Positions 3,085 to 53,981 of a stretch of 64,000 nt of DNA are shown piece after piece (within the stretch, counting starts at the first letter, position 1; every line of letters starts with the position of its first letter). The position numbers and the translations under genes are program-made. This DNA is from Ulva prolifera (lineage: Eukaryota > Chlorophyta > Ulvophyceae > Ulvales > Ulvaceae). Where the stretch lies: NCBI GenBank assembly GCA_023078555.1, contig CM041200.1:2054001-2118000 (forward strand), in the 5' to 3' direction. The notes beneath the pieces were generated by a model. It was given only the letters and a program-made list of their open reading frames with translations. It had not been told where the DNA came from and did not search any database.

Positions 3085-6000
3085 CTACATACTGGACATA
3101 GAATTCTGTATCCCATTTGTCAGTAAATACACCATGTCGTCCATCTCGACGCCCTGAGATTCGATTGTATCGGCAGCATCGTCGGCTATGATGGGCTGAA
3201 GAGGTGGCCTTGCACAGCTCAACGGGGCCTCGCGCACTGCAGCTGCGTTCTCCTTCTCCAAAACTTTATCCACCCACTTTGCTGAACGCTCATCGAATGT
3301 ACTAGCTGTCTTCTTTGTGTCTGCTTTGATCTTCCTGCTGGTCTTGACAAACTTGGCACCCGAAGTAGGTCGAACACAATGGTTAGCCTCGACTGCATTC
3401 GATGATGTTTGTGGTCTGCTGCGCTTTCCAGCACAGTCATCTCTTCTCTGCAAAGCAGTTTTATGCCTTGTCACCTGTGGAACGTAACTCTGCACACAGT
3501 GGCCTTCTCGTGCAGCAATGTGGCCTGTAGCTACCACACTAGACCTCCGCGAGTGATGAAGGGCTTGCTTGAGCTCGGCCAAAACTGTTGTGAAGCTGCC
3601 GTAAATCCTCCTGCGGAGGTGCGCAGGGAGGTCACGATCACTGAACTGTTCAATAATCTCCTGTGCACCAGCCATCAGCTCTGAACCTCTCCTGTCTTGC
3701 TCGATCTTAGAAGGCGTTCGCTTTTCAGTGATCACTGCAGCGCTACTGACAGCAATGCCTTCAGTGTCGCAAGCAGCAGTTCCTGATCCTGCAGCTGCTT
3801 TGCAAGGCGTTCTTTGGGACGGTGCACACGTAAGCACTTCACAATCTTTTGCCTTTTCACCAGCCTGTGGCGTTTGCATCATACTCAGCGCTCGCACAAG
3901 TGGTGCGATTCCACCCTTGCCAAGGTGACAGTGTCCCATTGCTCCGAAGTTAGAACCAGCATGCTTGACGCACATGTTCAAGAATGCATCTGTGTTCTTC
4001 TGAGCGACTTCTGGAAACATAGTAGCGAGCGCCAACATGTGGTGGACACAGAAGAGCTGCTGGCGGCCTGCATCGCAACTACAGCAGTTGTGGTCCTCAT
4101 CACAAGCAGTGAGCATGTACTGCTTGCCCTGCACAGTGACACGAGCACTTGTTGAGTTCGTATGCTCATGAGTCAGCTCCACAAGCGACGTCGTCTGCAT
4201 GCAATGCAGCTCCAGAATCTTTTTTACATCTGTAGCTATCTCAAGCAGTGCTTCCTCACGTTTATGATTGCGAACCAAGCCTGCACACACATGGACAGTG
4301 ACATACTGCATTTGCAGCAGGTTGACCTGTTGTGGCACATGGCACTTCATGCGCACCAGCTGCGAGTAGTGCTCTGGAGTTGTAGTAGTTTGGCATGATG
4401 GTCGAAAACAGGTGGAGAATGAGCTGGTCCACTCGGAACAGATGTTTTCGACCGGTGACTCGGTCTAGCACACTCTTGGCGGAAGAGTTGAAGCCTTCAC
4501 ATACTCCAGTGGTCCTTTGTGCGGCGAAGCAAGTGAATGTGCATACACTCACCACCCACTTTCCTGCATACTCGGGTGCTTTCAGGATGCAGGGCCTTTG
4601 GCATGCTACAGATGTCAGTGAAGCGGCAAACTTACTGAGTTTTGGCTGCCATTGCTTCTTGACGTACTGCACGGCTCCAGGCTGTGTTTCAGACCACCTG
4701 CAAATACCTCTGAGCTGATCTAGAAGTAGCGCCTCACACAAGTGACACATCTTGAGGATGCGCCTACCTTGTGCACCATTCATCAAGCATCTTTGATGCA
4801 AGCGCAAGCGTCTGCTCTTCAGTGTCGCAGGCTTTCATATACATGATGGCCACAAGTCCTTTCTCCATGGCGTGATAGGCTTCTGCTCTTTCTGCCGGCC
4901 TGCCCGATGTTTTGCCTTGCAATTGCTGCTGCAAAGCTGCTCGGACATGATAGAGACATAAGCCTTGTACAGCATACGGGAAGACAGAGCTGGCAGCTTT
5001 CTGATTAGCTGCTGAATCATCCGTCAGAATGGAGGCAGGCTGCAAATTGCTGCTTCCTTCTCCACCCTCGTTCAATGCTTGTTTGAAAACTTGAAGCACC
5101 TTCTCGAAACTTGCTGCGTCCTCATGCATCATAATGGCGAAACAGACAGGCAGCCCTTTGCCCCGCTCATCGACTGCAAGCATCACGAGCAAAGAAAACC
5201 CATATCTGTTGGTTCCAAAAGTGGTGTCCATCACAAGGACTCGACCAGGAACGAATTCCCTTGCCCATTTCATCATCTGATCATTTGCTAGGATAATGAG
5301 GCAGTCCTGCTCATTGTTGATCACCGGCTCTGCAAGAAAAATCCTTGGCTCGGAGCTGCCGTCCTGTCCATACTGCAAGGAGTCAAATTCTCAGTGATGA
5401 AAGATTGGAGTGGGCGAGTGAGTTATTCTTTGGACAGGCTTACCCTGATGGTCACAGAAATGGCATCCTCGGGATTCTTTTTAAACATAGCTGTCGCTAT
5501 CTGCCTGCGCAAATTTGCAAGGAACGTGTTGTCGATCGTAGCGTCCTTTACGAAGGGTGTCTGCACAAGTTGTGACATCAACGTGTGAGGCTCTGCAGAA
5601 GGTAGTCCGGCTTCGGTTGCAAGCCGTTGCAGGTTGCCTGCACATGCGGAATCTTTCCAGTCCCATACATCAGACAGCTTAACCACACCATGTGATGTAG
5701 ATCGCACTCTGCAGTATCAAAGGATTTGGTACTCCATCTGTGATTCTGGCAGCACAGAATGCTCTTGTTGCATCGCTGACCTTCAAAGGCTGGTGTGCAC
5801 AGCCCTTTTCATTTGGATCACTACTGTGCTTCCCATGATTATGCAAGACGATATACAGATCATTGGGATGATTGCGAAACACCCGACAGTGCATGCTGTA
5901 CCGGCAAGCACAACATGTGGCACCAGTGCCCCTAGCATCTTTCCCTACTCGAGTAGGACATTTTTTGCCAGATGCCTGGCCTGAGTTCGTAGCCAGTTTG

Positions 6001-6526: not shown

Positions 6527-7237
6527 TGGCCTTGAACATGTACCGCAGTACAGACGAACTAGCATGCGTAACTTCTTTGAGCTTGCTTGCGCCTGCCTTT
6601 TGGTTATTCCATAGCATTCAAGTCTGGTTTCGAGCCGTGGTCACGTAAATGGACACGTCGAATAAGCCTCAATGTAATCTATGCATGGCCACTGAAGGAA
6701 TTAGTGCTGCTTGAAGTGCTATGTGCGATCGCAATTCGCGGTGTCATTAGAGATGCCGATCACCCAGGTGGCGTTTGTTGCTCAGTAAGCAGGTGAAGCG
6801 GCGGTGCATGGCAACGGATTATAGCGCAAAATGGCTTGTTTGGGCATTCTGGGTGGCGTTGTTTGCTTGCTACTGGGCGAAAACACGATGCAGTGCTTGC
6901 TTGCCTCCTCGACCTCGGTACGACCTTGCCACAACACCCAGGGAAAACTGTAGCATAAGTGCTGTCATACCGCATTGCAGTACATTATGTTTGATCTGGA
7001 GCTGTCCGGTTTGATAGCTCCAATTGTGTCTTGTTCGCTGGACATGCTTGTTACCATGTTGGTGACAGCTCGTCCGACGTGAGCGTGTTGCGTGCTCGCA
7101 GCACATTCGCTTGGACGTAGCCAAGACTACTATTCACACAGCTCTATTGATGTGTTCTCTCAGGCGTCTCCGTCTCAAGGCAATTTGATGGACCCCGGTG
7201 CAGGGACAGCTGGCCAAGAGCTCACTCTTCCTGGGCG
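6527..7237. other. Intergenic upstream of the subtilase gene
   Basis: No conserved coding sequence. It should contain the promoter and first exon (signal peptide) of the plus-strand subtilase. Short ATG frames at about 7047 (hydrophobic, MLVTMLVTA) and 7188 are possible first exons but could not be joined by phase. Confidence 0.35.
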
Positions 7238-10200
7238 TTGCCGCCCGGATTGACGCAAGTCATCATTACGTCTGATTCACGTTGCATACGTTCTCTTGGT
7301 TCGGGACTCCATGTATCCTTGTTGCCACCCACGCACGCACTGGTCACGGCAAGTAGCAGCTCGCAATCACTGCCAACCAGCTGCCACCACCTCCTAACAG
7401 GAACTCCGCAACCTCAGCACAAGATCGCTGGTGCTTTGTGGGGCCTAATCGACCATGTCAACTCAGATGCAGGCAACGGTGTTTGTGACCCCCAGCGACA
7501 GGCGAGCCACAAGTGTGCTGTCCTGCATTCACAGCATCAGCAGCGACTCGTCGCAATCGAAGTACACCTCCACCAAGTTCAACACTTCAGCCCCAATGTA
7601 TCAGTGGCAGTAGCTGACGTCAGCAACGCCGATACTGCACAAGCAGCAGCAGAGGATTGGCAGCCAGTTTTGCAAAAAATCCTAGCAGGTGCCCCTGTAG
7701 CCATGCAAGCTCAAGACGGCTTATTGATCGTTTATGTGCCGCCCCGTCACATTGCTGCAGCTGCAACAGCGATTGCGCGACAACCAGAGGTCGCGCATGT
7801 GCTGCCACGCCGTTTGCACTTCTTGCACAACCTGCAGGACGTCAGCCTGCAGATTCAGGCAGGTGGTGATGCGGCACGCGGTGATGCAGCAACTGAGGCC
7901 CACTTCTGGAGCGCTGGTGTGAACGGCAGTGGGCAGGTGATCGGCTTAGGTGACAGTGGTATCGACATGGAGCACTGTGCGTTTACTGACCCAGCGGTCC
8001 CCTTTGGCTCTTTTACTGTTGACCGCTCCCGCGTGCCTGTCTTTCGCAGCACAGAGCACCGCAAAGTGGCACTTTACTACATGTGCGTACCTTCTAGCAG
8101 ATCCTCGGGGCTTCCGCTGCAGCCCTAAGTGATCTCACCTGCATGAAACACATAGCCTTGCATTAGGAGCAGTTGATTTGCAGGTTTGCGGATGGGCTGG
8201 ACGACTCGGGTGGGCATGGCACTCATGTCGCAGGAATCCTTGCAGCAAACCCGCTCACCAGCACACAGTACCGCGGCCTCGCCCCAGCAGCAAAACTGGC
8301 TTTCTATGACCTGGGGGCAACGTCGGTGCAGGCGTGGATCTCTGCCCCTGTAGGCCTTGACTCAAGGTGCGCACTTTACCCTTTACAGCACGCCCGCAGA
8401 ATTTCAGGGTTGCACAGACCGCTTCCTCTCAGTTGTCCAGGTTCCTGTGGCCTGACTGTTGCAGCTGCCACAGTCAACCGGCAACCAACAAGCAGCGACG
8501 GGCACAGTACAGTGACCTCTGGGCCGCATGAGCCCATAGGTGGGTATGGGGTGGAAAGCCGTTGCAGTCACTGGCGTTGCATGGGGCTGCAGGTATTTTC
8601 CTGTCACATATGAGGCTGGTGCTCGAGTGCATAGCGACTCCTGGGGCTCCAATGCGGTGCACTATGACGCAGACGCAATGGCCGTGGATGCCTTCAGCCA
8701 CAAGCATCAGGACTTCCTGTCTGTATTTTCAGCAGGGAACTTTGGCACGCTGCAGAGTGCGTATGAGACGACAGTCAACTCGCCAGCGCTTGCGAAGAAC
8801 AGCCTTGCTATCGGCAATGCTCGGCCGGCCGGCATGTCGTTTGGTGTCCCCATAGCGGCTGCAGGCTTTGTGGGGCAGCTCGCGTTTGCCGTGGGGGGCG
8901 TGCAGGCACTGAGCTCGACATTCGTTGCGGGGGAGTTCAGTTCTGACTGGAGCAAGCTCAGCGGCGTGCAGGCAATGCGGCTAGCTATCGCCGATCCACT
9001 TGAGGTACGCCTACGGCAGGGCCCATGCAATGATGTCTCATGATACGATTCTTTTAAACATCGCCATGTCTTGTCAAGTTGTTGACATATACGCTCTCGG
9101 CTAAATCGACTGGATATTGCGTGCACGTGCGATTGGATCGGCAGGCAGCACTCCTGATGGTTCCTTTCCACTTGCAGGCGTGCACAGAGCTCGCAGACCC
9201 TGGGGCCATTGATGGGGCGCTTGTGCTGGTGGCACGCGGCAGCTGTGCGTTTGATGTCAAGGCTGATGTGGCTGCACGCGCAGGGGCGCGGGCTGTGATC
9301 GTGGGAAATGATGATGCAGAGTATGTGGTCATGCAGCGCGCATCCGCTGGGCAGATGCCGATTCCTGCAGGCTTGATTCCGAGGCCGTCGTTCTCCTTTC
9401 TGCAATCCCTGCAGCAGTCCGGGCAGCCGGTGACTGCGACATTTTTGGGGGAGTTTGACATGGCAGGTCTGGATTCATCAGAGAGCATGGATGCATCATC
9501 CAGCCGCGGACCCACAGCCGACGGCCGCATCAAACCTGACCTTGTAGCTCCTGGTGCGCCGCCGCCGCCCCCCCCCCCCCCCCCCCCCCATATCACATGC
9601 TCGCCACAGCACCACATGCCTACCCTATTGCAACCTGCATGGTCTCTAATCTGACTCTAGGTGACACCTGCTATTCTATCTCCAACCTGCCTCGGCTGAA
9701 GGACAATGACTGTGGTCACCTGCATGTGTGATGACAGTGCATGCCTACAGGCACCATTACCTCCGCCAAGAGCTTGACTGAGTGCGGTGTATCGCCCAAG
9801 AGCGGAACTTCGATGGCCGCGCCGGTGGTTGCCGCATCTGCCGCGCTCGTGCGGCAGTACTTTGCCGACGGCTTCTATCCCGGTGGCGGCGCAAGCAAGG
9901 GCGTCAACCACGTTGCAAGCGGTCCCCTCATCAAAGCTGTGCTCATCGGCGGCGCCGCCCACATGCGGGGCTTCTCCGGCAGCAGCCCCCTGCCGATGGC
10001 GGTGCCATCCCCAGTGCAGGGCTGGGGCCGCGTCGATCTCGCCACGTCCCTGCCGCTACAAGGCGGCACCGCCGCCGCCAACCTACAGATTGTAGATCTG
10101 GCGGAGCTCACGGCGGTTGGGGAGGCGCACGTGTTCTGCCTTGAAGCCCACATGGGGCGCCTGGCAATCACGCTCGTCTGGCATGACCCGCCGGCATCGC

Positions 10201-13200
10201 CGGCCGCGGCGTCACCGCTAGTGAACGACCTGGATCTGGAGGTCCGTGTCGCCGAGCTTGGAGGTGTGCGGCTGTACAGCCAGGGTGCGCCGCAGCCGGA
10301 CCGCGTGAACAATGTAGAGCGGGTCGTGCTGGAGCAAGCGCCCCCAGGCACTGTCGCGATCTCCGTACAGGCGCACCGGCTGGCCGCGGGGCCGCAGAAG
10401 TATGCACTAGTTGTGCAGGGCGCCTTCTCCGGAATTCTGCAGCACAAGATGAACCCGGCCCTGCTTGACCAAGGTCTGCCGCCAGCTGGGCTGCCCATGT
10501 TTGGAAGCGATTGTCGGTTGTCGCTCTGAGTTCAACATCAGCAACTGAAATTTCTTGTTGTGCTGTATTGCTCTGGCTTCTTTCAAGGAGCAACCCGCTT
10601 TTGTCATCAATCAGGGTATGCGGCGGCAGGATTCACGCCGGCAACGAAGAGCGATGGTGGCTGCAGGGGTGTCCAATGACGAGTGTGTGGTGCTGGCAGC
10701 TGAGATTGACCTGACACCGGACCCTCTCACAGCGGACGGCGATCCAGCGTTTACGTTCTCCAGCCTGACGGGCGTCATGCCGGCACTTGGCTTTGAGTGT
10801 CAGCTGCGTAGCAGTAACGATGCTGCTCCGCCAGCCTGGCAGGCGTGCGAGAGCCCGAAGCAGTATACCGGCTTGCAGGATGGCGATTACACTTTCTATG
10901 TGCGGATTTCGGGTGAAGACCTGGCAGACTCATTTGAGTTCTTCATTGACAAGTCTCCTCCAGACACAGAGTTCATCGAGGTGCGCCTGGCACACATTGC
11001 TGAATGCCTGCGTGCCGGGCCGCATCATGGCCCTTCGCCCTTCTCGAGCACCCAGGGGGATGCTCGAGAAGGACGAAGGATGCATCTGCAGAGCTGCTTG
11101 CTGGTCGTCTGGGGCAACAGGCTTGTCGGGCATGCGTGACAGGTTGTGGAGCATGCAGGATTTTGGCTACGACAGAGACAGTCCACTCGCTATGCGCCTG
11201 CCGCCTGCAGTGTCGGGCCTGCAGGTGGCTGCGTTTGCAATACGCTCAACAGACCGCAGTCCCGTCCAGCTGACTTGCAAACTGGCAGGCCCAGCCGCTG
11301 CCGCCCTCCTGCCGCCAAACTCCGCCTTTCAGGTCAATACAGAGTACAATTGCACATCGCCGCAGGTTTTCTCCATCAATGCTGCCGGGAGCTACAAGTT
11401 CTCGGTGTATGGGACTGACTCTGTAGGCAACTGGGAGAAGAAGTCGGTGGTGCATGCCTTTGACATCGAGTACGCAGCAGGTGCACTGTACACACAGATC
11501 AGCGGGCCCGCCTGGGGCCCATCGCAGCACCGTACCCACACATTTAATCTTGAGGCCGTTCAAGGAACGCCCGATGGCAATGGGGTCGCACCTACTCAAC
11601 CTGTCGCCTTTGAGTATTCGGTCGGAGCGCTTTCACAGGCAGGCGCACACGACTCAATGTGGCTGGACTCGCCATGGCAGTCTGTCAATGGCTCGGTTTT
11701 CTCCCACACAGTGTGCCCCAGCTAGCCTGACGGTCTTGACAATAGCAATGGAGCTTAGCAGGTGTCACCGCGTTTGACGTCGGTGTGGTGCAGGTGGAGA
11801 AAGATGGAGAGGCACGTGTCCGTGTGCGCACCTCAGCAGCAGGTAGCCGCAATGTCGCTACACTGTGGCGCCTCAGTGTCGATTCCACCCCGCCAACAGT
11901 AACGTTCCGGAAGGATCCGCCAGCTGTGCTGCTGACGGACGCCGTCATCATCCAGGTCGCTGCAGACGAGGAAGCTGTAGATTGGCAGTGTGCCCTCATT
12001 GATGGCAACTTCAGCACTGTTGCAGCAGAGCTGCTCGCGCCGTGCCGTATCACCGCATCTGGGCTGATTGAGTACGGCGCACAGCAGGGTGCTGGAAGGA
12101 ACGGCAGCGGCGGCGCGCTGGATGACGGCAAGAGCTACACGTTTGCCGTGCGCGCACTAGATGCAGTTAGCAACGCGTCGCCCACGCAGCTGCGCCACTT
12201 CCTGGTTGACTTGTCCGCGCCCGAGGTCCGTGGCCTGACGGTCCCCAACACAACACGCGCAGAGTCAGTTCCCATTGCGTTCGGCGTCACAGACGGTGCA
12301 GCAGGCACCGGCGTAGAGTCGGTGGAGTGCGGCCTGCGGTGGCTCGGAAACAGTCCTGACAGTGAGACGCACTGGGTGGTGTGCAACCAGACCGCCGCGC
12401 CGGAGAACAATGCAGCGTGCCGCAGCTGCCTCTGGTATACGTATGAGATTAAAACTGTAGAGCAGGGTATCTGGGGGTTCAGCGTGCGCACGCGTGACGG
12501 TGCAAACCAGACCAATGCCACAGCCGAGGCGAGCATTGTGGTGGACCGCGAGGCCCCGGAGGCAAGCTGGGCCACCGCCGGCATCCCGCGCAATCCGGCA
12601 CCGCCGGACTTCCAGATGCAGATTGAGGCCATCGACCAGGGGGCATACAAGAGTGGCGTGCAGGGGGGGCTGTGCGCGCTTGTACCGGTAGGGGAGGCCG
12701 GCGACGAGGCATTTCAGGCGCAGGCACAGGCCGCTGTGCTGCTACTGCCGCTGGCTGGGCAGCACAGCAGTTCGCGCTTTCAGTACAATGACCCATCGAT
12801 GCACATTCGCAGTGCAGGCTTCAGTGCATGGTTTTTATGCGCATTGCCGGTGCAGGTCCGCGGCGTGCCGTCGGGGACATATCAGTTCGATGTCAGGCCC
12901 GTCGACAACGCTGGCAACGTGGGCCCAGCTCTGTCGACAAACGTCACTGTGCAAGCCTCCCTGGCGCCAGATGCGGCACTGGCTAAGGGAGGCGAGGCGC
13001 GGCCAATGAAGACATGGGTGCTAGGGCTGCTGGTGACCGGGGGCGTGCTCGTGTGCGTGATCGCTGCAGGGATAGCTATCTGGGCGTCACGCCGGCGGCG
13101 ACGAGCACCTGGTATCAGCAGGCAGCCGCATGAGGGCACTGGGACTGGCGTCGGGGTCACTGTGATCTGTCTCCCAGATTCTTCAGAGCGGACCCAAACG

Positions 13201-13350
13201 GACAGAGCTGCACTGGCGAAGCATGATGAGCTGCGCTTGAATCAGGCACTGGAGCAGTCTATGCTGGAGGCTGGAGTGCATGCGTCACGTGCACAACACA
13301 GAGATGACACAGCCCTGGAGCTGGCCATACAGGCGAGCTTGAGCCGATGA
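7238..13350 (+). CDS. Type I membrane subtilase with PA domain, Ig-like repeats and UIM tail
   Basis: A subtilisin-like (S8) serine protease. The inhibitor-like prodomain (about 7540-7840) is followed by the Asp motif GLGDSGIDMEH, the His motif GGHGTHVAGIL, an Asn region FSAGNFG and the Ser motif SGTSMAAPV. A PA domain (9178-9450) is inserted before the Ser motif. Ig-like repeats of the form D-x-PP-x-T follow (IDKSPPDT, VDSTPPTV, VDLSAPEV, VDREAPEA). Then comes one transmembrane helix (about 13009-13080) with an RRRRR stop-transfer, and a tail with two UIM-like motifs. Supported exons: to 8082, 8184-8366, 8593-9004, 9178-9553, 9751-about 10472, about 10667-10979, about 11161-11709, 11794-13350; most joins are phase-consistent. 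The frame at 7238 opens with TTG, so the true start and signal peptide are unresolved. Probably in the secretory or endosomal system or at the cell surface. Confidence 0.85.
9554..9750 (+). other. Subtilase intron with a 22-C tract after the donor
   Basis: Donor GT at 9554, acceptor AG ending at 9750. Splicing restores VAPGTITSAKS before the Ser motif. The intron begins GTGCGCC(GCC)n followed by 22 consecutive C (9568-9589). Read through, it would give a polyproline run. Confidence 0.75.
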
Positions 13351-14334
13351 AGCCCTAGATAGTCCATCGCTCAACGCTGATGCACACATAACAGAGGTTC
13401 ATGAACACCAGAGGTTCATGCGCGTCAGCCGTTTTTCTAGATTATGGGCATTTTAGCCTGCACTTGCAGGAGTGTGTGATGTGACCTTCTTAGTGTCGGG
13501 ACAATCGTTTTGTACTTGTTGATGCCACAGATCTTACCTTTAACTGCGTATGTGATGGTTGCTACTGTTTGCTGCTACACCGTGTCAAAGCTACCAGACA
13601 CTGTCCGTCCTCAGGTTGTCAGTGAGATGATGCAATCCACAGATGGCATCTCCCTGTCAGTTTGAGCCTGTGTGTGGCACGAAGGGGGGTGGGGAGGGTA
13701 TTGGCTGTTGCTACATCCTATGACTCGCGTATTCAGACGCATGCTGATTTCTGGGAAATTATGTCTCCTAGATGTTGAATGTCAAGTCCAAATCAGCAAA
13801 AGGTTGGTCCATGTGTGCAGGGGCAGTGGCTTGTCATGACTGCGCTATGTTTTGTGAGCCAATAGACAGCCGCATGGCAAGAAGGACGAGTGTACAGCAG
13901 ACTGCTACAGACACGATCTGAGAGACCTGGGAAATCAAATGTCAACACGAATGTCGAACTCCAATTGCACTGGTGGGCAGCTTTGGAATAGTATTATTTC
14001 TGTTGCCTCGGGCACATTGTGGTGCCTCACCTATAAATCGTATCAAGATGGTTCGCAGAACATAACCAGTGGCGTCCTATCCTTGTGTGCCGTTTCAGAA
14101 ATCTGGTAGCAGCGGCATAGATGATCGATGTTACTGAGATGATACACCAGGGGTGATGCAACCAACATGACTTATCATCAGTACTGCGCATCACTGGGCC
14201 TGCACATCTGGTAAGCTTCCTGCGTTGAGATCCTCAGACGTACTTTGGCGTCAGGGCTGCGTGGCACGCAGTGCGTGGCATCCATGTGACACCATCAGCT
14301 GGCAACTGTAGCGTCTACATTGAGAATCGTGCCA
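13351..14334. other. Intergenic, no gene seen
   Basis: The 3' ends of the plus-strand subtilase and the minus-strand peroxiredoxin-like gene converge here. No conserved frame, repeat or RNA gene was recognised. Confidence 0.5.
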
Positions 14335-15333
14335 TTAGACTGTTAAAGATCGAACCAGCTGCAGTGCGTTGGCTGAGCTTGTCACGTCAACTATATCGGG
14401 GGACTTCTCAATGCACTGCATAAATCGAGATGATCCGGGGTGGTCAGTTCGGCGTGACCACAAGTACAGATGCGCTTGACAATCATAGGTACACAGATGA
14501 TCGGATCGCACGATTCGGGTAAGAATTCCATCTTGAACCAGACCCATGTATCTTTGGGATGTGGGTGAGCCCTGGCCGGGAGGGTGGATGTCGAGACCCA
14601 GCATTCTTGTGAAGGCACCATGACTGTCCGCTACAGCACAAATGCCACTTGCATCGGCTCCGGACTTACTTAAGAAGGTGCCGAGGTCCTCAGAAGATGC
14701 AACGGCACATAGGTATACATTTCCGAAGCCTGTGGTGCGAAGTTCTGCAATGTCCCTCACGTAGCCCTGAATGTGAGCTTGCTGGCTGTCCGCTAAATCA
14801 GGAATGCCTATCACCAAACTGTCCCGATCCTGTACAATCTTCAGCTTTCAGACTGGTATTTGCCAAGGGTGGGTGTGGGCGGTAACGCGTGAACCAGCAT
14901 CGGTAGAGCATTGGCTTCCAGATTGACGATGAGAGGAAGTCTATTTTTGTGACGCATCGACGATCTGGTCGAGTGCTTCTGTTCAAGGGCGCGAAGTGCT
15001 GGGAACATGCAGGTTTAGTGAGAATTTCAATCTGAAGACGCTCTGGCACTTGTTCATGTGAGCGTATTCGGGACGCTGCTCAGAGCTCTGCCGCACCTTG
15101 AATAGCCCAGACAGCGCTACGGAAGTGCCGTTGCATTGAACTCGAATGTCCTGTCGTAAGGTAATATCACGTCTTCTATTGAGGCTGATGTTGCAAGCAG
15201 AACTGGTCAGGTCGCTGCCATGATGCCCTGCAGGTACGTCGTGTGTGGATGTTGTCCATGGCCGTGTGCTACCTAAACAAAACTTCGCGTCCGTGGCCGG
15301 AAGCAGTCTGGAAGCGTGTCTCAAACGTTGCAT
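14335..15333 (-). CDS. Peroxiredoxin-5-like protein lacking the peroxidatic Cys
   Basis: Three phase-consistent exons (15333-15273, 15227-15097, 14829-14335) encode 228 residues. The N-terminus MQRLRHASRLLPATDAKFCL is Arg-rich without acids early on and looks like an organelle presequence. The rest follows the atypical 2-Cys peroxiredoxin (Prx5/PrxII) fold: LSGLFK, then GIPDLADSQQAHIQGY where active relatives have a GxPGAFTxxCSxxHxPGY-type motif, then ADSHGAFTRMLGL and a C-terminal VQDG turn. The active-site Cys position is occupied by Asp or deleted, and two residues are missing, so thiol peroxidase activity is not expected from this site. Other Cys residues occur at positions not known to be catalytic. 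Alternatively an unrecognised splice variant restores the motif. It shares a 520-bp divergent promoter with the zinc-finger gene at 15854. Confidence 0.8.
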
Positions 15334-30807: not shown

Positions 30808-33800
30808 ATGGGCAGCGTAGACGTGTCTCTGACCTTTTCATGGGTCGGAGCCCTGCTAACGAAGGCCTTGGAGTCGGGAGCTCTGCACTTCACGGATCTT
30901 GCGCGGTATGGGCAGGATATCCAGCCGATGTGGTGCGTTCCGGGCTCCTCACGACAGGAGCGTGTGCACACAATAACGCACGCAGCTGCGTTGCGACTGA
31001 CCGAGTATCGACTGCAGGCACGGTACATGCTATTCAACTGACTCAGCGCCGCAGACCGGCGTGCGTTTGCTTGGCGCCATGATGGCAACCGTCAAGCAGA
31101 AGTACTTCGTCCTCTTGCTGTGCAAGGTGTTGGACGACTCCCTGAGCTTCGCAGCTCCACTCATCCTCGGAGATCTTGTTGACGTGGTGTCGTCGGGCTC
31201 GCCACAGACAGAGCAACGGACAAGTCTCTCGAGCGGGTTTTTGATTGAGCCCATTTGTGCTATGCTGCCGCATGCCGGGCTCGTGCAGCGATGCGCGATA
31301 CTTGCATCACTCCTCTTCGTGGTAGCTCTGCTGAAGGCAGTGGTCACAACACAGTACAACTACCATCTGAACTTGATGGCCATTCGTGCCCACGGTTCTT
31401 TGATCCAGGCGCCCCTGCATGCAGCCCTCTGCATGCCAGCTTATGTCCGAGGCCGATTCTCTGACGGTACGCAACATGCTGTACATATTTGCTTTTTGAA
31501 ATAGCTGTGCATGCGCTGCCTGCCCCGCGATACCACAATAGCAGCAGTTACCCGGTGTCACCAACCTGCACCTCCATGGGAGTCCCTGCCTGCTGTGGCC
31601 AGGCAAGGAGCACTAAACCCCTGCTGACACATGCCATCACTGCAGGTCACTGCCAGTCGCTGATCTCTGTCGACGCCCGCAAGCTTTCAGATTTCTTTTG
31701 TGGCTCGCATGCGATTGTGACCCTGCCACTGCAAGTCGTGCTGGCACTCGTCATCCTCTGGCGGCAAGTGCGCATGGCTTTTGTGGCGGGCTTGATCCTT
31801 GTCATTGCCCTCATTCCCATCAACCGCCTCCTTGCCTGGGGCATCACCACAGCATCTCAGCGGATGCTGGAGCACAAGGACCGTCGGCTTGCCTCCATGA
31901 CCACGCTCCTTGGCAACCTCCGATCGCTTTTCATGATGGGGTGGCACGATGTCATGCGCATGCAGGCGCGTCCCACCTCGCCTGCATGCAGCACTTGACA
32001 TGGGCACCATGCGCATATGCCACATGATGGCCAACATGCATGCACACCGTTACCACAGTGGCTGTGCAGGCGTGGAAGCACCGCAGGAAGGAGCTGGGGA
32101 TGTTACGGGTGCGGAAGTACTTGGATGCGGTGTGTGTGTGCGCATGGGCGCTGACGTCCAGCCTCTTTGCGGTGACAACGTTTGGACTGATGGCATGGTG
32201 GGGCCAGCCGCTGGCGCCGGCGACGGTCATTGTGTGCCTCACGCTCTTCAACATCCTCATCGCGCCACTCAATGCGCTGCCGTGGGTGCTCAATGGCGTG
32301 CTGGAGGCCCTCGTGTCAGCGCGCCGCCTCGCCGCCTTTCTCGGTGCCGCGGGGCCTGCTACCGGCACGCCCTCAGCACTACTGCGCAACAAGCCGACTG
32401 CGGTGTCGCGCACCCGCATCCAGGCAGGTGCCGCAGCGGTGCCGGGCGTGGCGGTGCCTCCGATCCGTTCGTTTGGGTGGGATGCGGTGATCCAGGAGGT
32501 GCATAGCGCGCCGCCGCTGAGGGCCCAGACACCGCTGCTGGACCGGTTGGCCCCTGCCGCTGAGCCCTCTGTGCAGATGAAGGGGGCCAGCTTTGCCTGG
32601 AGAGCCGAATTGTGTGCTCCAGCAAAGGATGTGCTGCACAATCTCTGCTTCTCCGTGCCCAAGGTGCTGTTACTGCTGTTGCTGCGGGTGTACGGCCATG
32701 TCTCCACCGCTGATCCAGTACACTATGTAAACCTCTTCGCATCACAATTCAGATGATGGATGATTTCTCAGGGATGTGCGCAACGTTTGTCAATCCAGAC
32801 ACCCGTCGCAAAGTTGGCCCAGCCTCGACTTGCTGGCAGCACCTGCTGATCTGGTCAACGTGCTACTGTGCAGCAATGCTTTGTGCCGTCGGCTGTGTGG
32901 ACTGGTGGCTCCATGCAGGGCTGCTTCTGCGTGTTGGCGGGCCCGAGCGGCTCGGCCAAGTCCAGCGTGCTCTCAGCTATCCTGGGGGATATGCTTCTCA
33001 CGGGCGGGGCCTGCGAGGTGTGCGGCACATGTGCGCTCGCCCCGCAGGAACCATGGCTAGTCGCTGACACAATTAGGGACAACATCGTCATGGGCGGCCG
33101 GGTTGATGAGCAGCGTTACCACATGGTGCGCCGCCTTTCGCACTCAAAGCTCCTGCTGGGAAGCCCGCTCAGCGATCATAAGACGGCTGCAATCGGGGCG
33201 TGCTTGCCAGGCACAATTGCACAGTTTGAAGTTGATTCTGTATGCATGCTGCGCCGGCAGTCGGGTGGAGCCATTGGCATGGGGACCTCGGTCTAGGAGG
33301 CAGCATACCGCGTGCAAGGGATGGCAATGCTGGCCACAGCAACTGCATGGGAAGCATAGAAAGTGCTGCAGCGAGTGGCGTCCTGCATGATTCAGGCAAA
33401 CAAGCAGCCGCGGCATTGCGACAAGCGGCCCCGGTGTGCAGGTGCTGGAGGCATGCGAGCTGATCCCAGATATTCAGGCGATGCCGAGTGGCGATGCCAC
33501 CCGCGTGACTGACTGCGGCGACAACCTCTCCGGCGGCCAGCGCGCCCGCGTCTCCCTCGCGCGAACCCTGTACACACGCTCTGATATCTACCTCCTCGAT
33601 GACTGCCTCGCGGCCCTCGATGGCCGCGTCGCGGCCTGCGTGCTGCGCAGCCTGCTCTATTCCCCGCTCATGGGCCACGCGACGGTCATCATGACGTCAT
33701 CGCACCAGCCCTCTATCGCCGCAGCAGACTTTGTGATCTCGATGGAGCATGGCCGGATCGCGTCGGTGGTTGGGCAGGGCGGGCGTGCGGCTGTGGATTA

Positions 33801-36800
33801 TGTTACACAGGCAGGGGGACAGATGGCATGGTCACCCACAAAGCGGCGCTCTGCACTCGGCCGGCCCCGCAGCAGAAGCAGTCGCTCCTTTGAGACGTCA
33901 TTGCCGCACTTCCTGCTGGAAGACGCATGGGAGCAATGCATTACCACTCGGGAACAGTGGGAGCCACGCATTGCAGCCGGGGAAGCACCTCCGTGGGTCG
34001 CGCACGCGCAGGCGCTACACGATCAAGGCGGCTGCAGCAGAGACATGCACCAGAGCGCTGATCCAGAGGAGGAAGCTGTTGGCGCTACCGAGGCTGGCCT
34101 GTGTGGCAACTGCTCTTCGGGCGAACAGAGCTGTGTACCAGAGCAAGGGGTCGCCGCCCCACAGGCGCGCACCTCGCTTGTGCATTTGGTCCCAGCCTGA
34201 CGTTGCACCTCCACAATCTATCAGCTGTAGCTATGCCGTGCCAGCGCTGCACGCGCTGAGCATGCTGCGCTGCGATCTTAAGCCTGCCATGCTCCTTGAC
34301 AGACCGTGTCTCTTCCGCAGGCGGGCTGCAAAGATCAGCCTCTGCCCGAATGTGTGCTGTGTTTCCGGCACACCCCTTCCCTAAACCGGACTGAGCTTGC
34401 GCCTAGTTGACACAATTCTCTGCTGCTGGCGTAACCGTTTCTGACCGGCTGTGCAGCTAAGGCCACACCCCTCCTACAGCCCACTCTCACCGCTGCCATT
34501 TTTCACTGTCCCCGACAGTCCCCTCGCCGCATGCTCCTCTACGGCGCCTGCATGTCAGAGCAGCTCCGCAGGACTCGGCAGCGTTGCCGCCACCGACAGC
34601 GGCACCGTCCGCGACCCCCACATGGAATCCGGGTTCGCTTCTGGAAGATACTCGACCCATTCCTTCACACATGCTCCGCAGTACACGCCCGATCTCCAGA
34701 CAGGCTTTGTTGGGGCGCTTTCCTACTCCAGCATCCCCCGTAGCCATGCATGCTCCGCTGGAACCATCCGGTCCGCCAACCTGGCACGCGCCAGCTCCTC
34801 TGACACCACAAGCCTACTGCCGAAGAGCCGCAGGCGGGCCGGAGGCTCGAGCAGCGAGTTTGCAAGTGTCAGCGCCCCGGCGTCACCCTCCCACATGGGG
34901 CAGCAGTTCTCTGGATATCCACGCGCTTGGGGTAACGTGCATGCGCGTGTTGGGTCAAGCAGCAGCCTCAACGACCTGCCGCTAAGCGTGCGCGCCGGCG
35001 AGAGCAGCTCCATGCGCACTGCTGGCGGCGGCGGCTCCCGAGGCATGTTCCTGTCGTCGCAGGGGGATGCCGCAAGCATGCATATGCCTGGCAGTGAGAG
35101 CATGGCCGCCCTGGACAACCTCTCAATGCACCACAATGCTGCGGCTCGGGAGGAGCCGCGGGAGGAGGGTCACGTGAAGTTTGCTATTTACTGGGAGTTC
35201 CTGACAGCAGTTGGCTGGCCCGCAGTCTTTGCCGTTGTGACGGCCCTTGTGGCCATGCAGCTCGTCCGCACGCTGACAGATGTGTATGTGACACTGTGGT
35301 CTGGGGACTTGCATGCTGGGCACACGCGGCCGCCCGGCGTGTCACTGCGGCATGAGTGGACGTCCGAGTCGACATCTGCGTTTCTGCGTGGCCTAGGTGC
35401 ACTCACCGCAGTGTCCTTGGTGGCTACCATTGCGCGCGCCTTCCTGTTCGCCAACGCTGGCCTCAAGGCCGCCGAAAGCCTTCACACCCGCCTCATGGAT
35501 TCGTGCGCTCCTGTGTGGCTCTTGCGCACCGCCCTCAGACAGCACAAGGCTGTGCTTGCTCTTGCGATGGCTGCAAGCTGCCCCTTGTCTGCATTGCACA
35601 AAGTGTGTGGTGCAGCGTGAGGAAGTTCTGCGCAGGAAGTGAACCACATACAAGCATCCTGTGCAAACTACCTGGCTGCGATAGGGACGTGCGTACAGGG
35701 TGCTTGCGGCGGACCTGTCGCTGCTGAGCCGCATCCCGCACGGCAGACTGCTGGCCCGCGTCAGCACGGACACCGAGGCAGTGGACGACCAGCTGCCGTT
35801 CATTGCTAATATTGCACTCGCGTCCGCAGCGGGCTTTGCCGCGGCGCTGCTGCTCATGCTCATCAGCCAGCCGCTACTGCTCATCGCTGTTGCCGCGCTC
35901 GCCGTGTTCTACCTACGCCTGCAGCGCCGCTACCGGTAAGCCTTCATTTTCCCATTTCCCCTGCTTCTCATGCATGCCTGAACAGCCCCAGATTCTGTTG
36001 CAGCGGCCACATATCAGCGTAGTGGCAATGGATGTACATGCGTTTCCAGCCACATCCTCCTGTCAGAGCAGTGGCCGTAATCAACACACAGCAGTACGAT
36101 GTGAAATACATGTGCTCCTGTCATGCCTAGTTACGGAGGGTTGTGCGTCGTGCAGGGCGGGAGGCCGCGAGATTCGGCGGCTGGAGAACTCGTCCACTGC
36201 ACCGGTGTACTCGGTTTTTGCGGAGGCCACCGCCGGCTCGGCGGCGGCGCGCTCACTTGGCCTGGCAGACCACCTGCAGCAGCGTTTTAGGGAAGCCGTG
36301 TGTGTCCACCTAGCTGCGCGGGTCGCCAGTAACGCCCTTGACCAGTGGCTTGCGCTGCGGCTGCAGCTCGCGTCGGCCGCCGTTGTTGGTGTGCTGGCAT
36401 TCCTTGCGGTCGCATCGCAGGCGTGTGTGGCTCCAGGTGAGATCTGCCGGCTTGCAGCGGCGCCACCAGCTGTGAGCGCACGAGCTGTCAGTGCAGCCAT
36501 GCGAGGCCATGTCTGCACTTGGATCCCCTTGATATCTAAATCTGGCGTGGCCAGCTTGCGAAGGATGCAGTGCCTGTTGCAAGGGACATGTGCAGACTGC
36601 TTGCTTCACCGAGCTTGACCCACCACCAATGCTTACAGGGCTGCCTGGAAAGAAGTGGCCAATGCTGCTGACAGGATTGAGCCTGGCATACGCGCTGCCG
36701 ATGGTGTCGCTGCTGAGTAGCTTGCTCACGTCTTGCGCTGAGGTGGAGCAGGAGATGGTGGCCGTAGAGCGTGTTACTCAATTCACACACCTACCCGCCT

Positions 36801-38314: not shown

Positions 38315-40428
38315 TCACAGCATACGGATGCTGCTCCTATCTGCTGGCAACTCTTTCAAGAATGCCGCACAATTCAGATGCGTATTGCCTACGGCTCGTG
38401 CAGATGTCTGCTCTTGCTTTGGCACCACAATCTTGCCAGCACTGTCCTTTGCTAGAAAAAGGATTTTCCCCCCAGCATCAACTTTGATCAATCCCCCATG
38501 TGCACGCAAGCATTCCACACACTGCCTCTCCCTAGACAGCACATCTCCCGCTCCGCCCTCGGCGCCCAGCAAATGACCCACAGATGCACCTGGCAGAGGG
38601 AAAGTGTCTTGAGTGCAGTCCGTTTCATGCGAGAACCCAAGCAACCGCATGCACATATCCAGGGGTAAGGTTCTGTAAGACATCACCAGTCCCTGGACCG
38701 TTTCGAAACGAAGACTTCTGACACCCCAGTCCATCACGAGCTGGCCACAGTGTGGGGCAGTGAAATACAGATTCCAAAATTGCACGTAGTTGCAGGTCGT
38801 GATTGCTTGGTATACACTCATTGCATGCTGTACTTCAGGTGTTTCCCACACGCCTTGGGCCACAAGCTGCAGAACAGCGCGACTGAAAGACAGAGCCCGG
38901 TCTTTCTGTTCGATGCATATGTAGAGCAGGAGCTGATAGCCGCCAAACTCAGCTTTGCTGCCGGGCAATCCCTCATCATACATGGCTTGCAACGTGCTCA
39001 CACACTTTCGAAACTCTTGTTGGTCAGAGTGCTCAAGAGCAGCCCGAGCAAACACTTCTTCTGTTCGCACCGTTGTTGCGTTGCGGATGTGCTGTACTGT
39101 CAGATCTTGGCGTATCGCTTTCAACTGGCTCCAAATATACATGAAGTCCTTCTCACCCCCTGCAATCATACTGACAATGCGATCCAGTGCTTGTACCAGC
39201 ACCGGTTCTGGTCTGACCTCCTCTGGCTTTGGGACACCGTTCAATCGTAAAAATGACTTCTCCATGCGCTGACACGTCCCCTGTATGATGATGTCCGGGT
39301 TCCACACGGGCTCTGGGATACTGGGTCCGGACCCTTCAGAGAGTTGAGCAAATCGCGATGTGCGATCACGAATCTGCTTGTTCATCTTCTTCTTCCGCTT
39401 GCTGACGACAATGCTGGTTTCACTCAGTGACGGGCCCCTATCGGACTGTCGCACAGTCCCACCTTTTCTATGTGTGTCGCGCAGTGGAGAGTCACGCCAC
39501 TCATGCATCTGATGATCAGAAGCCGAATGTGCTGGAGGTGCAGGCAATGATGGCAGCATGGGCATGGGCTCCCTGTCCCAATCATGAGTGTACAAAACCC
39601 CCTGTGCTCGTTTCTCCTCCAGGATTTGTTTCATTGTTTGTCGTAGGCGCTCACTCTCGTGCGAATCGTATTTTTGCAATGCTCGCTTGATCCAGTCTTT
39701 GAGTGCCTGTGCCTTGTCTCCCTGTGCAGGATCTGCATGGACAGCTTTTACTTATTGTTGGCTCGTCAGCAGAGAAGAGTATCTTACATTTCATACAAAA
39801 TACCAAGGAGATCAGAGCAAAGAAACGTACGAGCTGTTGGCGCAGGTGTCCGGGGAGGCATGGCAGTTTCGACAGCTAATGGTAGAGGTCTCTGCGCGGG
39901 CACCTCTGGCGACCTGCTTGCCTGAGCAACAGCTGCAGTACCTGGCCTGGATGTGCCGTCCAAGCTGAAAGAAATGATTCCCGTTCCGTTCCCTGTTCCT
40001 GGAGAACTTGTGAGGGATGCTACAGCCGCATTCGATGTGGTGACAGCAGCAGAGTCCCATGTTGGTGGCAATGGTTGTGCCGGAAATGCCTGGTACTGCT
40101 GAGCCGTCTGATACGGGGAGTACGTCGGGATACCCCCGTAAGTGGGATGCACAGCTGGCGCCTGCCAAGCATTATATGCCTGGTATGATGGATAAGGGTT
40201 GTATGCTTGAGTGTACGGCTGCTGCAACGGATATTGATACATGGGTTGCTGAGCGTAAGGGTACGCTGCGTTTCCGTTGGGAACCTGATACATCTGCGGT
40301 TGCTGCATATCTACGTACTGCTGCACGCCATCGCTGGCCTGCGTTGGCGTGATAGGCGGGGGAGGCTCATCCGGCAACGGAGGCGGAGCTTCTGGCGGAG
40401 GAGGGGGCGGCACGACTGAAGCACTCAT
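38315..40428 (-). CDS. LENG8/THP3-like SAC3-domain protein
   Basis: Two phase-consistent exons (40428-39831 and 39732-38315) give a 671-residue protein. The start ATG at 40426-40428 opens MSASVVPPPPPPEAPPP. The N-terminal 170 residues are a Pro/Tyr/Gln-rich disordered region, as in LENG8 relatives. Basic segments follow (SKRKKKMNKQIRDR). The C-terminal SAC3/GANP domain starts at GTCQRMEKSFLRLNGVPKPE and contains LKAIRQDLTVQHIRN, with helices to the C-terminus. Yeast Thp3 and animal LENG8 act with a CSN12-like partner in mRNA processing, export and transcription elongation; the same nuclear role is inferred here. Convergent with the ABC transporter (115 bp apart) and divergent from the pfkB gene. 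Confidence 0.9.
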
Positions 40429-51892: not shown

Positions 51893-53981
51893 CTATGTAT
51901 GCCCTTTTGAGCTACTGGTGCCCGGTCCAGGGTCTGGTCGGGATTCTGCATCCACATCTGGTGGCTCTTTCATTGCATCATCTGGTGCATCCTCAAAGGG
52001 CACAGATACAGGACGCACAAATTCTTGCAAGTTCATACGGATGTTGGACACGATCTTCTGAATTCTGTCGCGTTTGTTTTTGTTTGGTGCGGTTATTCTG
52101 GGAACACGATATGGGACAGCCCCAATGTCATACACACGCTCCCGTTTGACGTGCTCCCAGTAGAACGGATCCTGCATAACGAAAGCATGGTAACTGCCTG
52201 CTGGTGAGCAGACTGGCTAGACACAGGTACTCTCGTGAATGCCCATCAGATAATGCACAGGCATGATAACACCACAGGATTGCATGCATACAGCGCAGGG
52301 CCATACAATCGGACAGTAGTAAGAGATCTGCTCATCTTGGTATCCCAACATCGAGATGGTTTCATAACTCCATGTTCTTGCAACATTAGATATTGTGTAC
52401 CCGCCCCCACCCAGCATCATCACTGGTACATTTGGATACATTTGTCGCAAGTACCTCCCTGCCTCTGCGTGGCCCAGCGTAGTGAGATTGAATTTCCCAA
52501 TCTTATCTCCAGCGAGCGAGTCTGCTCCACATTGCAGGACGATCACGCTTGGTTGATAATGTTCCATCACGCCATCTATCACAGGGATGAAAACGTCGTT
52601 GACAAACATCTCATCATCCAAGCCATCGGTCAAAGGAACATTCACCGCATATCCCTGTATCGCCATAAGAACTTCAGTAACAAGGCAGCATTCCACACAG
52701 CTCATCGCGACAGGCAGTACCGTCCACGTTGTGCGGTACACGAAGTGGGAACACTGTGCTCGAAATGCACGAGACAGAACAAGCAGCATGAAGTCCCCAG
52801 CTGACAGATGCGTCCAGCACACATGTTTATGCGCTGCGAAAACGATGCAGTGCCATGTTGTCACAGGGCAGTTGCTGCATACTCGGGCTTCATGGTGTGC
52901 ATCGTCTGGACCAATGTCGCACACATCGCCGGTCCCCGGAAAGAAAAAATTGTTACGGTCCTTGTCTCCACGATCATACTTATGAAATGAAACGGTCATG
53001 ACTCGATTGGTGTGTAGGAAAGCTTCCTCCACACCGTCACCATGATGAATGTCAATGTCAGCATACATCACTCGAGGATGATACTTCAGCAATTCAAGAA
53101 TTCCTAAGACAATGTCATTGATATAGCAGAACCCTTCAGCCTTGTCCATGCGTGCATGATGAAGGCCGCCTGACCAGTTCACTGCAACTTCCGCCAGATT
53201 GTGGTTGAGCATGACTGCAGCGCCGACAGACATCGCTGCCGCAGATTTGGAAAAATCGAAGATGGTTTCAAAAAATGGGCAGTCTTCCTGCATAAGAAGC
53301 AAATCACCATGGCAGTGCCATGCAACGCTTGTGACACGGCTTTCCACAATGAGAGATGTCTGCGTACCGTGATACCACACTGTTCTTGCTCAGCTTTCTC
53401 AGCACTGGATCCCAAGTTTTCTTTGACCAGCTTGTCGAGCCTGTCCCAGCCGGCAGCATCCCTGGGCTTGGACAGGAAGCGAAAGTAATCATCTGTGCAG
53501 AATTCCTTGATAGCTTGCTCGCCTATAGGGCCAGCCTGCTTGATCTGCAGTAGATGCGAAAATCATAGTTTCTTCAACTGATCGAAACTCTCCTGCCTGC
53601 AAGAAGCCAACCACCATGCCGAAAGGAACGCACATTTAAAGATGGCCAAAACGGAGAGTGCATCAGAAGGGAATGCGTCATAGTGATGCGGTGGGGCTTC
53701 ATTGGGTGTCGGTAACCATAGTACACAGAGCTGGCTGACCGTCCAGTCTGCTCTGGGTCCCGATAACATGCCGGGTCATAAAAATATGCCACCTGCAGCA
53801 GAAACACTCGGCTGAACTCCAGACAGAAGTGAAAGTTGACAGACCATTCGGTGTGGCCTGCTTGCATATTACAAATGTCAGCAAACGTTGCGACTTGAGG
53901 GGGATTTGGGAATGAACACATCCAGGTGCGAGTCCGAGACCAATAAGGAGCAGATCTTCCCACCTTGCTTTCTCGAGGCAT
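51893..53981 (-). CDS. Class I (RPD3/HDA-type) histone deacetylase
   Basis: A zinc-dependent lysine deacetylase of nuclear corepressor complexes. Six exons with exact phase: 53981-53964, 53792-53634, 53544-53368, 53287-52883, 52654-52307 and 52171-51893, giving 461 residues. The start MPRESK joins [17 protein letters not shown] and then [15 protein letters not shown]. Catalytic residues are present: the His pair in [15 protein letters not shown], zinc ligands in [14 protein letters not shown] and [14 protein letters not shown], and the transition-state Tyr in LGGGGYT. A small insertion (DRGDKDRNN) lengthens the loop between VSFHKY and FFPGTGD. The tail is short and acidic/Pro-rich. The 228-bp intron 4 is stop-free and in frame. 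The exon 5-6 join is the least conserved. Confidence 0.92.

Follow-up and report, generated by a model that had tools for sequence, protein, structure and literature searches.

Does an algal surface protease carry its own receptor for ubiquitin? The question is raised by a gene on the forward strand of a 64,000-nucleotide stretch of the Ulva prolifera genome (assembly GCA_023078555.1, contig CM041200.1, positions 2,054,001 to 2,118,000; hereafter, the window). An earlier note on the window had described its product as a membrane-anchored subtilase with two ubiquitin-interacting motifs (UIMs) in the cytosolic tail. The two tail segments appear to be UIM-like, at the weak edge of the motif. The reading that we favour, tentatively, is that of a type I surface or luminal protease whose tail would bind ubiquitin and which would travel with ubiquitinated membrane cargo to vesicles dependent on the endosomal sorting complex required for transport (ESCRT).

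By its sequence, the protease part is an S8 subtilase of the KP-43 type. The stitched protein matched the Pfam profiles Peptidase_S8 (PF00082, E 3.9e-39) and PA (E 8.8e-11), and the triad of D287, H341 and S674, with the oxyanion residue N440, was positioned by motif. The nearest solved relatives in the PDB were KP-43 (1wmd, E 9.8e-39) and SubHal (5fax, E 2.6e-37), which share with the algal protein the catalytic domain, the SSRGPT...KPD.MAPGT and GTSMA motifs, and the C-terminal barrel with its LVNDLDL...NNVE pattern. The KP-43 alignment flanked the PA insertion on both sides and reached residue 432 of the 434-residue chain through the barrel; KP-43 aligned without a counterpart of PA, whereas the algal protein has this domain inserted. 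A KP43 cluster is recognised within S8A (PMC6713707). Two other memberships were rejected on the PDB ranking, in which KP-43 was best: none of the 27 sequences at E ≤ 0.001 was named as a plant subtilase (SBT1-5) or as a furin/kexin (S8B) enzyme. In NCBIfam, no family scored over its cut-off.

Downstream, the stitched Ig-like repeats matched three profiles, each over its curated cut-off (Y_Y_Y 2e-9, Big_13 1.2e-8, Big_3_3 1.9e-6); for Big_13, single stretches taken alone were all below it. Among 20 pattern-matched stretches in a collection of genome contigs, six encode prokaryotic relatives (L029-L034), two of which were examined. The bacterial relatives L029 and L030 combine S8 with an InhA-like MAM domain and gave no Pfam PA match, so that the PA domain, the Ig stalk, the transmembrane helix and the tail would be additions relative to those two. 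A collection of viral contigs gave one pattern match, and no relative was found in it.

One strong hydrophobic segment was located near the C-terminus, with RRRRR directly after it. By the positive-inside rule, this basic stretch would place the 81-residue tail in the cytosol. A type I topology is therefore probable, with a signal peptide, a luminal or extracellular protease part and a cytosolic tail; the signal-peptide exon is backed by hydropathy and splice phase. Up to this point the earlier note was borne out: the S8 catalytic motifs with the full triad, the PA domain, the Ig-like repeats and the single transmembrane helix followed by RRRRR were all recovered, by profile, motif or hydropathy.

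The tail contains one lysine and no tyrosine. A pattern scan of it for YxxΦ, [DE]xxxL[LI], NPxY and the ATG8-interacting motif found none of them, so that, of the sorting-type signals searched for, the UIM-like segments alone were present. In single-sequence AlphaFold2 models of the transmembrane-tail piece, both segments and their linker formed one long helix (piece residues 86-136). In the best of five models, the predicted local distance difference test (pLDDT) score of this block was 53-69 up to residue 101 and 83-91 from there on; for the transmembrane helix, it was 88-93 in mid-helix and 63-67 at the ends. The mean pLDDT ranged from 70.7 to 34.7 across the five models, so that the prediction supports the helix and does not prove it. 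The model of the whole last exon (518 residues) was unusable, with a pLDDT of 34 and no residue at 70.

The UIM consensus reads Ac-Ac-Ac-X-Φ-X-X-Ala-Φ-X-X-Ser-X-X-Ac (PMC8273247), and 15 known UIMs that we compared fit it at 6 to 8 of 8 positions, against 7 and 6 for the two tail segments (Table 1). Both carry the hydrophobic-x-x-Ala-hydrophobic-x-x-Ser pattern claimed for them, and both have acidic residues at the same two lead positions. The alga's own genome (88.9 Mb, 44 contigs) also holds an ataxin-3-like and an Rpn10-like gene, L009 (C3, Josephin) and L011 (C4, VWA_2), with three UIM-like segments each; the identity of these UIMs is drawn from the nearby Josephin or VWA_2 match together with the motif, in unspliced genes. 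The UIM TDEQQLELAIKASLGD of the ataxin-3-like gene shares these two acidic lead positions, and the core of the second tail segment, LELAIQASL, is nearly identical to LELAIKASL in that gene. Pairs of cores 12-40 residues apart occurred in two places only among 132,129 15-mers: this tail and the ataxin-3-like gene. This background was the six-frame translation of the window and of 17 own-genome loci, in which three pairs of loci overlap (L018/L025, L020/L024, L021/L022), so that part of the sequence was counted twice; 11 loci that duplicate the window's gene or L009 (L001, L003-L008, L010, L023, L027, L028) were kept out of it, and the prokaryotic loci stand outside it. When the 49 residues at the end of the tail were compared with the PDB (177,635 distinct sequences, E ≤ 10), the sole match was the UIM region of AIRAPL, the AN1-type zinc finger protein 2B, at E 0.31. 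The alignment covered 37 residues without gaps, 15 of them identical, and preserved the Ala-Ala spacing of 26 found in the tail. The core Ala/Ser pattern is thus common to the tail and to tandem-UIM proteins (AIRAPL/ZFAND2B, 4xkh; the ataxin-3-like and Rpn10-like proteins); unlike those proteins, the tail has sub-threshold segments, sited in a membrane protease.

A number of results weigh against ubiquitin binding by this tail. The third acidic residue is missing in both segments, and the second segment is also without the last one. When the Pfam UIM profile (PF02809) was run on the 85-residue tail, the second segment scored 9.4 bits (E 1.3) against a cut-off of 21; the first segment, either segment given alone, and the 49-residue pair were all unreported. 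The ataxin-3-like pair, given to the profile in the same way, scored 23 bits. Six own-genome UIM peptides were also submitted singly: five scored 14.7-25 bits with PF02809 and one scored 15.8 with UIM_2 only, two of the six exceeding 21 bits alone. The AIRAPL match is itself weak, the pair was picked by a reader out of the whole 64 kb, and neither the own genome nor the viral contigs searched yielded an orthologue or paralogue in which the UIM positions could be compared. As for the whole-genome PF02809 search, it returned zero matches, although UIM sequences are present in the genome; such a search is therefore blind to so short a motif.

We also built a score matrix from the 15 known UIMs, six from the own genome and nine from a table in PMC8666691, whose PUX13 row, lacking a UIM core, was set aside. 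The first tail segment scored 10.8 and the second 14.6, compared with 15.3-32.9 for the known UIMs left out singly, which again tells against the pair. Nine of the 132,129 15-mers reached at least 10.8 bits, namely the six own-genome UIMs (all members of the training set), both tail segments and one other (12.2). Thus, the second segment lies just below and the first clearly below the lowest known member, and both lie well above the background. In 20,000 shuffles of the tail, both scores were reached together in none, the score of the second segment alone in 13, and the core pair in eight. An earlier matrix, now superseded, combined ten further UIM 14-mers with the six from the own genome; it gave 7.0 and 18.6 for the two segments and 17.1-30.4 for known UIMs left out singly, with both scores reached in 0 of 20,000 shuffles, so that the first segment looks weaker and the second stronger there than in the final matrix.

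These numbers bear on the best-surviving alternative, which we consider somewhat unlikely yet serious: an ordinary membrane-anchored KP-43 protease in which the likeness of the tail helices to UIMs is accidental, or in which they are amphipathic helices serving another purpose, such as contact with the membrane, a coiled coil or another partner. The missed Pfam cut-off, scores under all 15 known UIMs and the selection of the pair after 64 kb had been viewed speak for such a resemblance, and a single core is common, being found in 659 of the 20,000 shuffles and 73 times among the 132,129 15-mers, true UIMs included. Chance accounts less readily for the pairing of cores, the shared acidic lead-ins and the AIRAPL spacing, or for the scarcity of equal scores, with one 15-mer at or above 10.8 bits besides the known UIMs and the tail. 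In the UIM profile search, both segments were non-matches at the curated cut-off, which is largely the outcome that the earlier note had named as refuting it. Its tandem-UIM claim survives only in part: the consensus fit, the rare pair and the AIRAPL match speak for it, while the Pfam cut-off was missed and the scores fell below those of the known UIMs.

According to the mechanism that we favour, the signal peptide would direct the KP-43-type catalytic domain, the PA domain and the Ig-like repeats to the luminal or outer side, and the single helix would anchor the protease in the membrane. The cytosolic tail, as a long helix with two UIMs at AIRAPL-like spacing, could then recognise membrane cargo tagged with ubiquitin, single or in chains, and the protease and the ubiquitinated proteins would be carried together into ESCRT-dependent vesicles. 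The tandem UIMs of AIRAPL select K48 chains (PMC5361193). The motif-like segments are seen in the sequence; the binding and the sorting route we infer. The destination may be endosomal vesicles or perhaps, in a ciliated alga, ectosomes, in which a membrane subtilase could act on the cell wall or on neighbours.

Several features of the genome form the context of this proposal. Radial spoke and light-harvesting proteins were matched, indicating a photosynthetic host with motile cilia, and an ESCRT-I-type UEV match was found. In the search for VHS (ESCRT-0), the controls were silent. Plants are generally said to be without canonical ESCRT-0. For Chlamydomonas, a review (PMC6970386) describes ectosomes in which ubiquitinated proteins, ESCRT proteins and proteases are enriched, and its mating ectosomes are reported to contain four membrane subtilases (PMC6919629, PMC10886904). 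The comparison tells partly against our proposal, given that all four are described as type II, with the transmembrane segment before the protease, unlike the algal layout, and that the main text of PMC6919629 mentions neither ubiquitin nor ESCRT. That the protein resides in cilia or endosomes is likewise a proposal. As noted in PMC10886904, the choice of proteases and membrane cargo for ESCRT-dependent or ciliary vesicles needs much more work. Of the earlier note's suggestion that the traffic of the protease is coupled to ubiquitin, the probable type I membrane subtilase with two UIM-like helices is retained, and ubiquitin binding is kept as a proposal.

If the proposal were true, a protease with its own ubiquitin receptor would couple ubiquitin directly to surface proteolysis. 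A broader version, which we regard as unlikely, is that cytosolic ubiquitin rules a luminal or extracellular subtilase: the tail would read the tag on membrane proteins, perhaps as K48 chains in view of the AIRAPL-like spacing, the tag choosing either the proteins that are cut across the membrane or the export vesicles, e.g., ciliary ectosomes.

RHBDL4 shows that such logic already exists in an unrelated protease. Its cytoplasmic UIM is reported to help bind ubiquitinated TMED7, with the luminal domain specifying cleavage (PMC10920636). Both are membrane serine proteases with a cytosolic UIM or UIM-like segment, which makes RHBDL4 an analogue in working; however, it is an intramembrane protease with seven transmembrane helices (PMC5559722), in contrast to the luminal subtilase predicted here. 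Membership of the rhomboid family was ruled out, the protease being S8, and the comparison is functional only. The topology here would permit the UIMs to hold ubiquitinated membrane proteins so that the subtilase cuts their luminal parts. We think this rather improbable; a PA domain and a long stalk of Ig-like repeats would fit the surface better than the endoplasmic reticulum.

More doubtful still is an autophagy client or adaptor, whose tail would bind ATG8 (at its UIM docking site) or some other ubiquitin-like protein. ATG8 binding through UIMs with the core Ψ-ζ-X-A-Ψ-X-X-S has been reported for UIM2 of AtRPN10 and for PUX7/8/9/13 (PMC8666691), and both segments match this core at its Ala, Ser and hydrophobic positions. 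Such binding is conceivable, given that some plant UIMs show it and that the genome has ATG8 matches over the cut-off, but the consensus is unable to tell ATG8 binders from ubiquitin binders. No surface protease is known to us as a precedent, which counts against this alternative.

The nine-exon model is set out in Table 1. The stitched gene (6808-13350, forward strand) encodes 1679 residues with a single stop at the end, and its splicing is inferred. In agreement with the earlier note, the upstream joins keep phase, all eight introns of the stitched model being GT-AG, and the last exon is a single open frame through the last Ig-like repeats, the transmembrane helix and the tail. The gene start at 7238 given there had to be abandoned; this is not a start codon, and its frame has no ATG before 7703. 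The start is probably the ATG at 6808, in an upstream signal-peptide exon that is supported by an open reading frame (ORF), a hydropathy of 2.31 over 12 residues and a donor in phase with the acceptor at 7204. Codon usage gave exon 1 and the 5' end no backing; no other part of the model is less certain than this end. In exon 2, the frame is open and the acceptor ggtgcag/G fits the phase; alternative in-phase acceptors are possible at 7180-7381. A run of 22 C lies at 9568-9589, in the intron that separates exons 5 (PA) and 6 (GTSMAAP), and its precise length may depend on the assembly.

Table 1. Predicted features of the subtilase gene (window coordinates)
Feature	Positions	Strand	Content and basis
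Exon 1	6808..6917	+	Start codon (ATG); likely signal peptide MATDYSAKWLVWAFWVALFACYWAKTRCSA; donor TCG/gtacga
Exon 2	7204..8082	+	Prodomain-like by visual inspection, with catalytic Asp287 (7952-7954)
Exon 3	8184..8366	+	GHGTHVAG, catalytic His341 (8215-8217); Peptidase_S8 1.5e-7 on ORF
Exon 4	8593..9004	+	Oxyanion Asn440 (8738-8740, SAGNFG); Peptidase_S8 2.1e-9
Exon 5	9178..9553	+	PA (to ~9384) inserted in S8, then SSRGPTADGRIKPDLVAPG; PA 2e-11, S8 2.4e-4
Exon 6	9751..10473	+	GTSMAAP, Ser674 (9810-9812), KP-43-type C-terminal barrel; S8 3.8e-5
Exon 7	10667..10980	+	First Ig-like repeat; phase and repeat pattern by eye
Exon 8	11225..11710	+	Ig-like repeats; donor gtgtgc weak
Exon 9	11794..13350	+	One open frame: last Ig-like repeats, transmembrane helix, basic stop, tail, stop codon
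Transmembrane helix	13015..13089	+	WVLGLLVTGGVLVCVIAAGIAIWAS; residues 1569-1593; Kyte-Doolittle 2.58 over 19 residues
RRRRR basic stop-transfer	13090..13104	+	From sequence
UIM-like 1	13222..13272	+	HDELRLNQALEQSMLEA; 7/8 consensus positions; absent from Pfam report
UIM-like 2	13300..13347	+	RDDTALELAIQASLSR; 6/8 consensus positions; C-terminal end of protein

The barrel in exon 6 is supported by the alignment to KP-43 (1wmd); the donor of this exon, gtctgc, is atypical. For exon 7 alone, no Pfam match over the cut-off was found. With the end of exon 7 joined to exon 8, Y_Y_Y improved from E 0.0027 to 3.7e-5, its best stretch unchanged and inside exon 8, and four weaker Pfam matches became slightly worse.

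Least probable among the alternatives is an error in the gene model, with exon 9, or the tail within it, being part of a different transcript or spliced out: the donors at 11710 and 10473 are unlike the others, neither TGTAA nor AATAAA was seen in 13350-14400, and a donor-like GT at 13051 with CAG/G at 13333 could allow an in-frame excision of 282 bases (by arithmetic) that would remove most of the transmembrane helix and both UIM-like segments, but the exon 9 frame has no ATG before 12616 and is thus not a start-to-stop gene alone, a weak PKD match (E 0.029, below the cut-off) spans the 11710/11794 join while its halves alone are silent, and the codon usage of the tail frame, though negative like all six, is the best of them (-0.148 bits per codon, vs -0.343 or lower). 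The splice-site pair 13051/13333 led us to give slightly more weight to this alternative and slightly less to chance resemblance.

Searches of the genome with exon 9, the catalytic core and the tail found no paralogues, and the catalytic-core search recovered this gene only. Peptidase_S8 exon matches numbered 11, at six places by our grouping. One candidate, L002 (30%, E 0.012), was rejected as a paralogue; judged by eye, it is another transmembrane stretch with a different tail.

Membrane anchoring of S8 enzymes is itself familiar from the furin/Kex2 convertases and from VLE1 and Cre03.g190250 of Chlamydomonas. The tails of furin and Kex2 carry tyrosine or acidic motifs as signals. Among the 21 S8 proteins of Chlamydomonas, seven are membrane-anchored, one of type I and six of type II (PMC6313938, Table 1), and for green algae the earlier statement that such enzymes are as a rule secreted, made for plants and algae alike, goes too far. 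Cre03.g190250, compared by its table listing, has S8 at 298-792 and a transmembrane segment at 1149-1171 of 1229 residues (PMC6313938), a like layout that makes it a possible relative. The main text of that paper, the sole one found on this protein, does not contain the word "ubiquitin".

Our literature search found no paper joining subtilase, ubiquitin-interacting motif and transmembrane. Among the matches listed for subtilisin-like and UIM, the two papers joining them concern, by title, Arabidopsis RPN10 and NbHYPK, and a search on apicomplexan type I subtilases gave nothing useful. The assertion that no subtilase of this layout has been described is accordingly uncontradicted in the literature searched; as far as these searches reach, the combination of S8, transmembrane helix and UIM would be new, its parts being already known.

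Other features were observed elsewhere in the window. A MULE transposase domain (PF10551, 2.3e-19) was located at 4767-5390 (-), shortly before the start of the subtilase gene and antisense to it. The ORF at 33391-34200 (+) has, by eye, an ABC-transporter signature (LSGGQRARVSLARTLY...DIYLLDD), and the next ORF, at 34445-35617 (+), gave no Pfam match at E ≤ 0.001. A SAC3/GANP domain (7.7e-26) was found at 38318-39751 (-) and a histone deacetylase domain (3.6e-59) at 52220-53389 (-).

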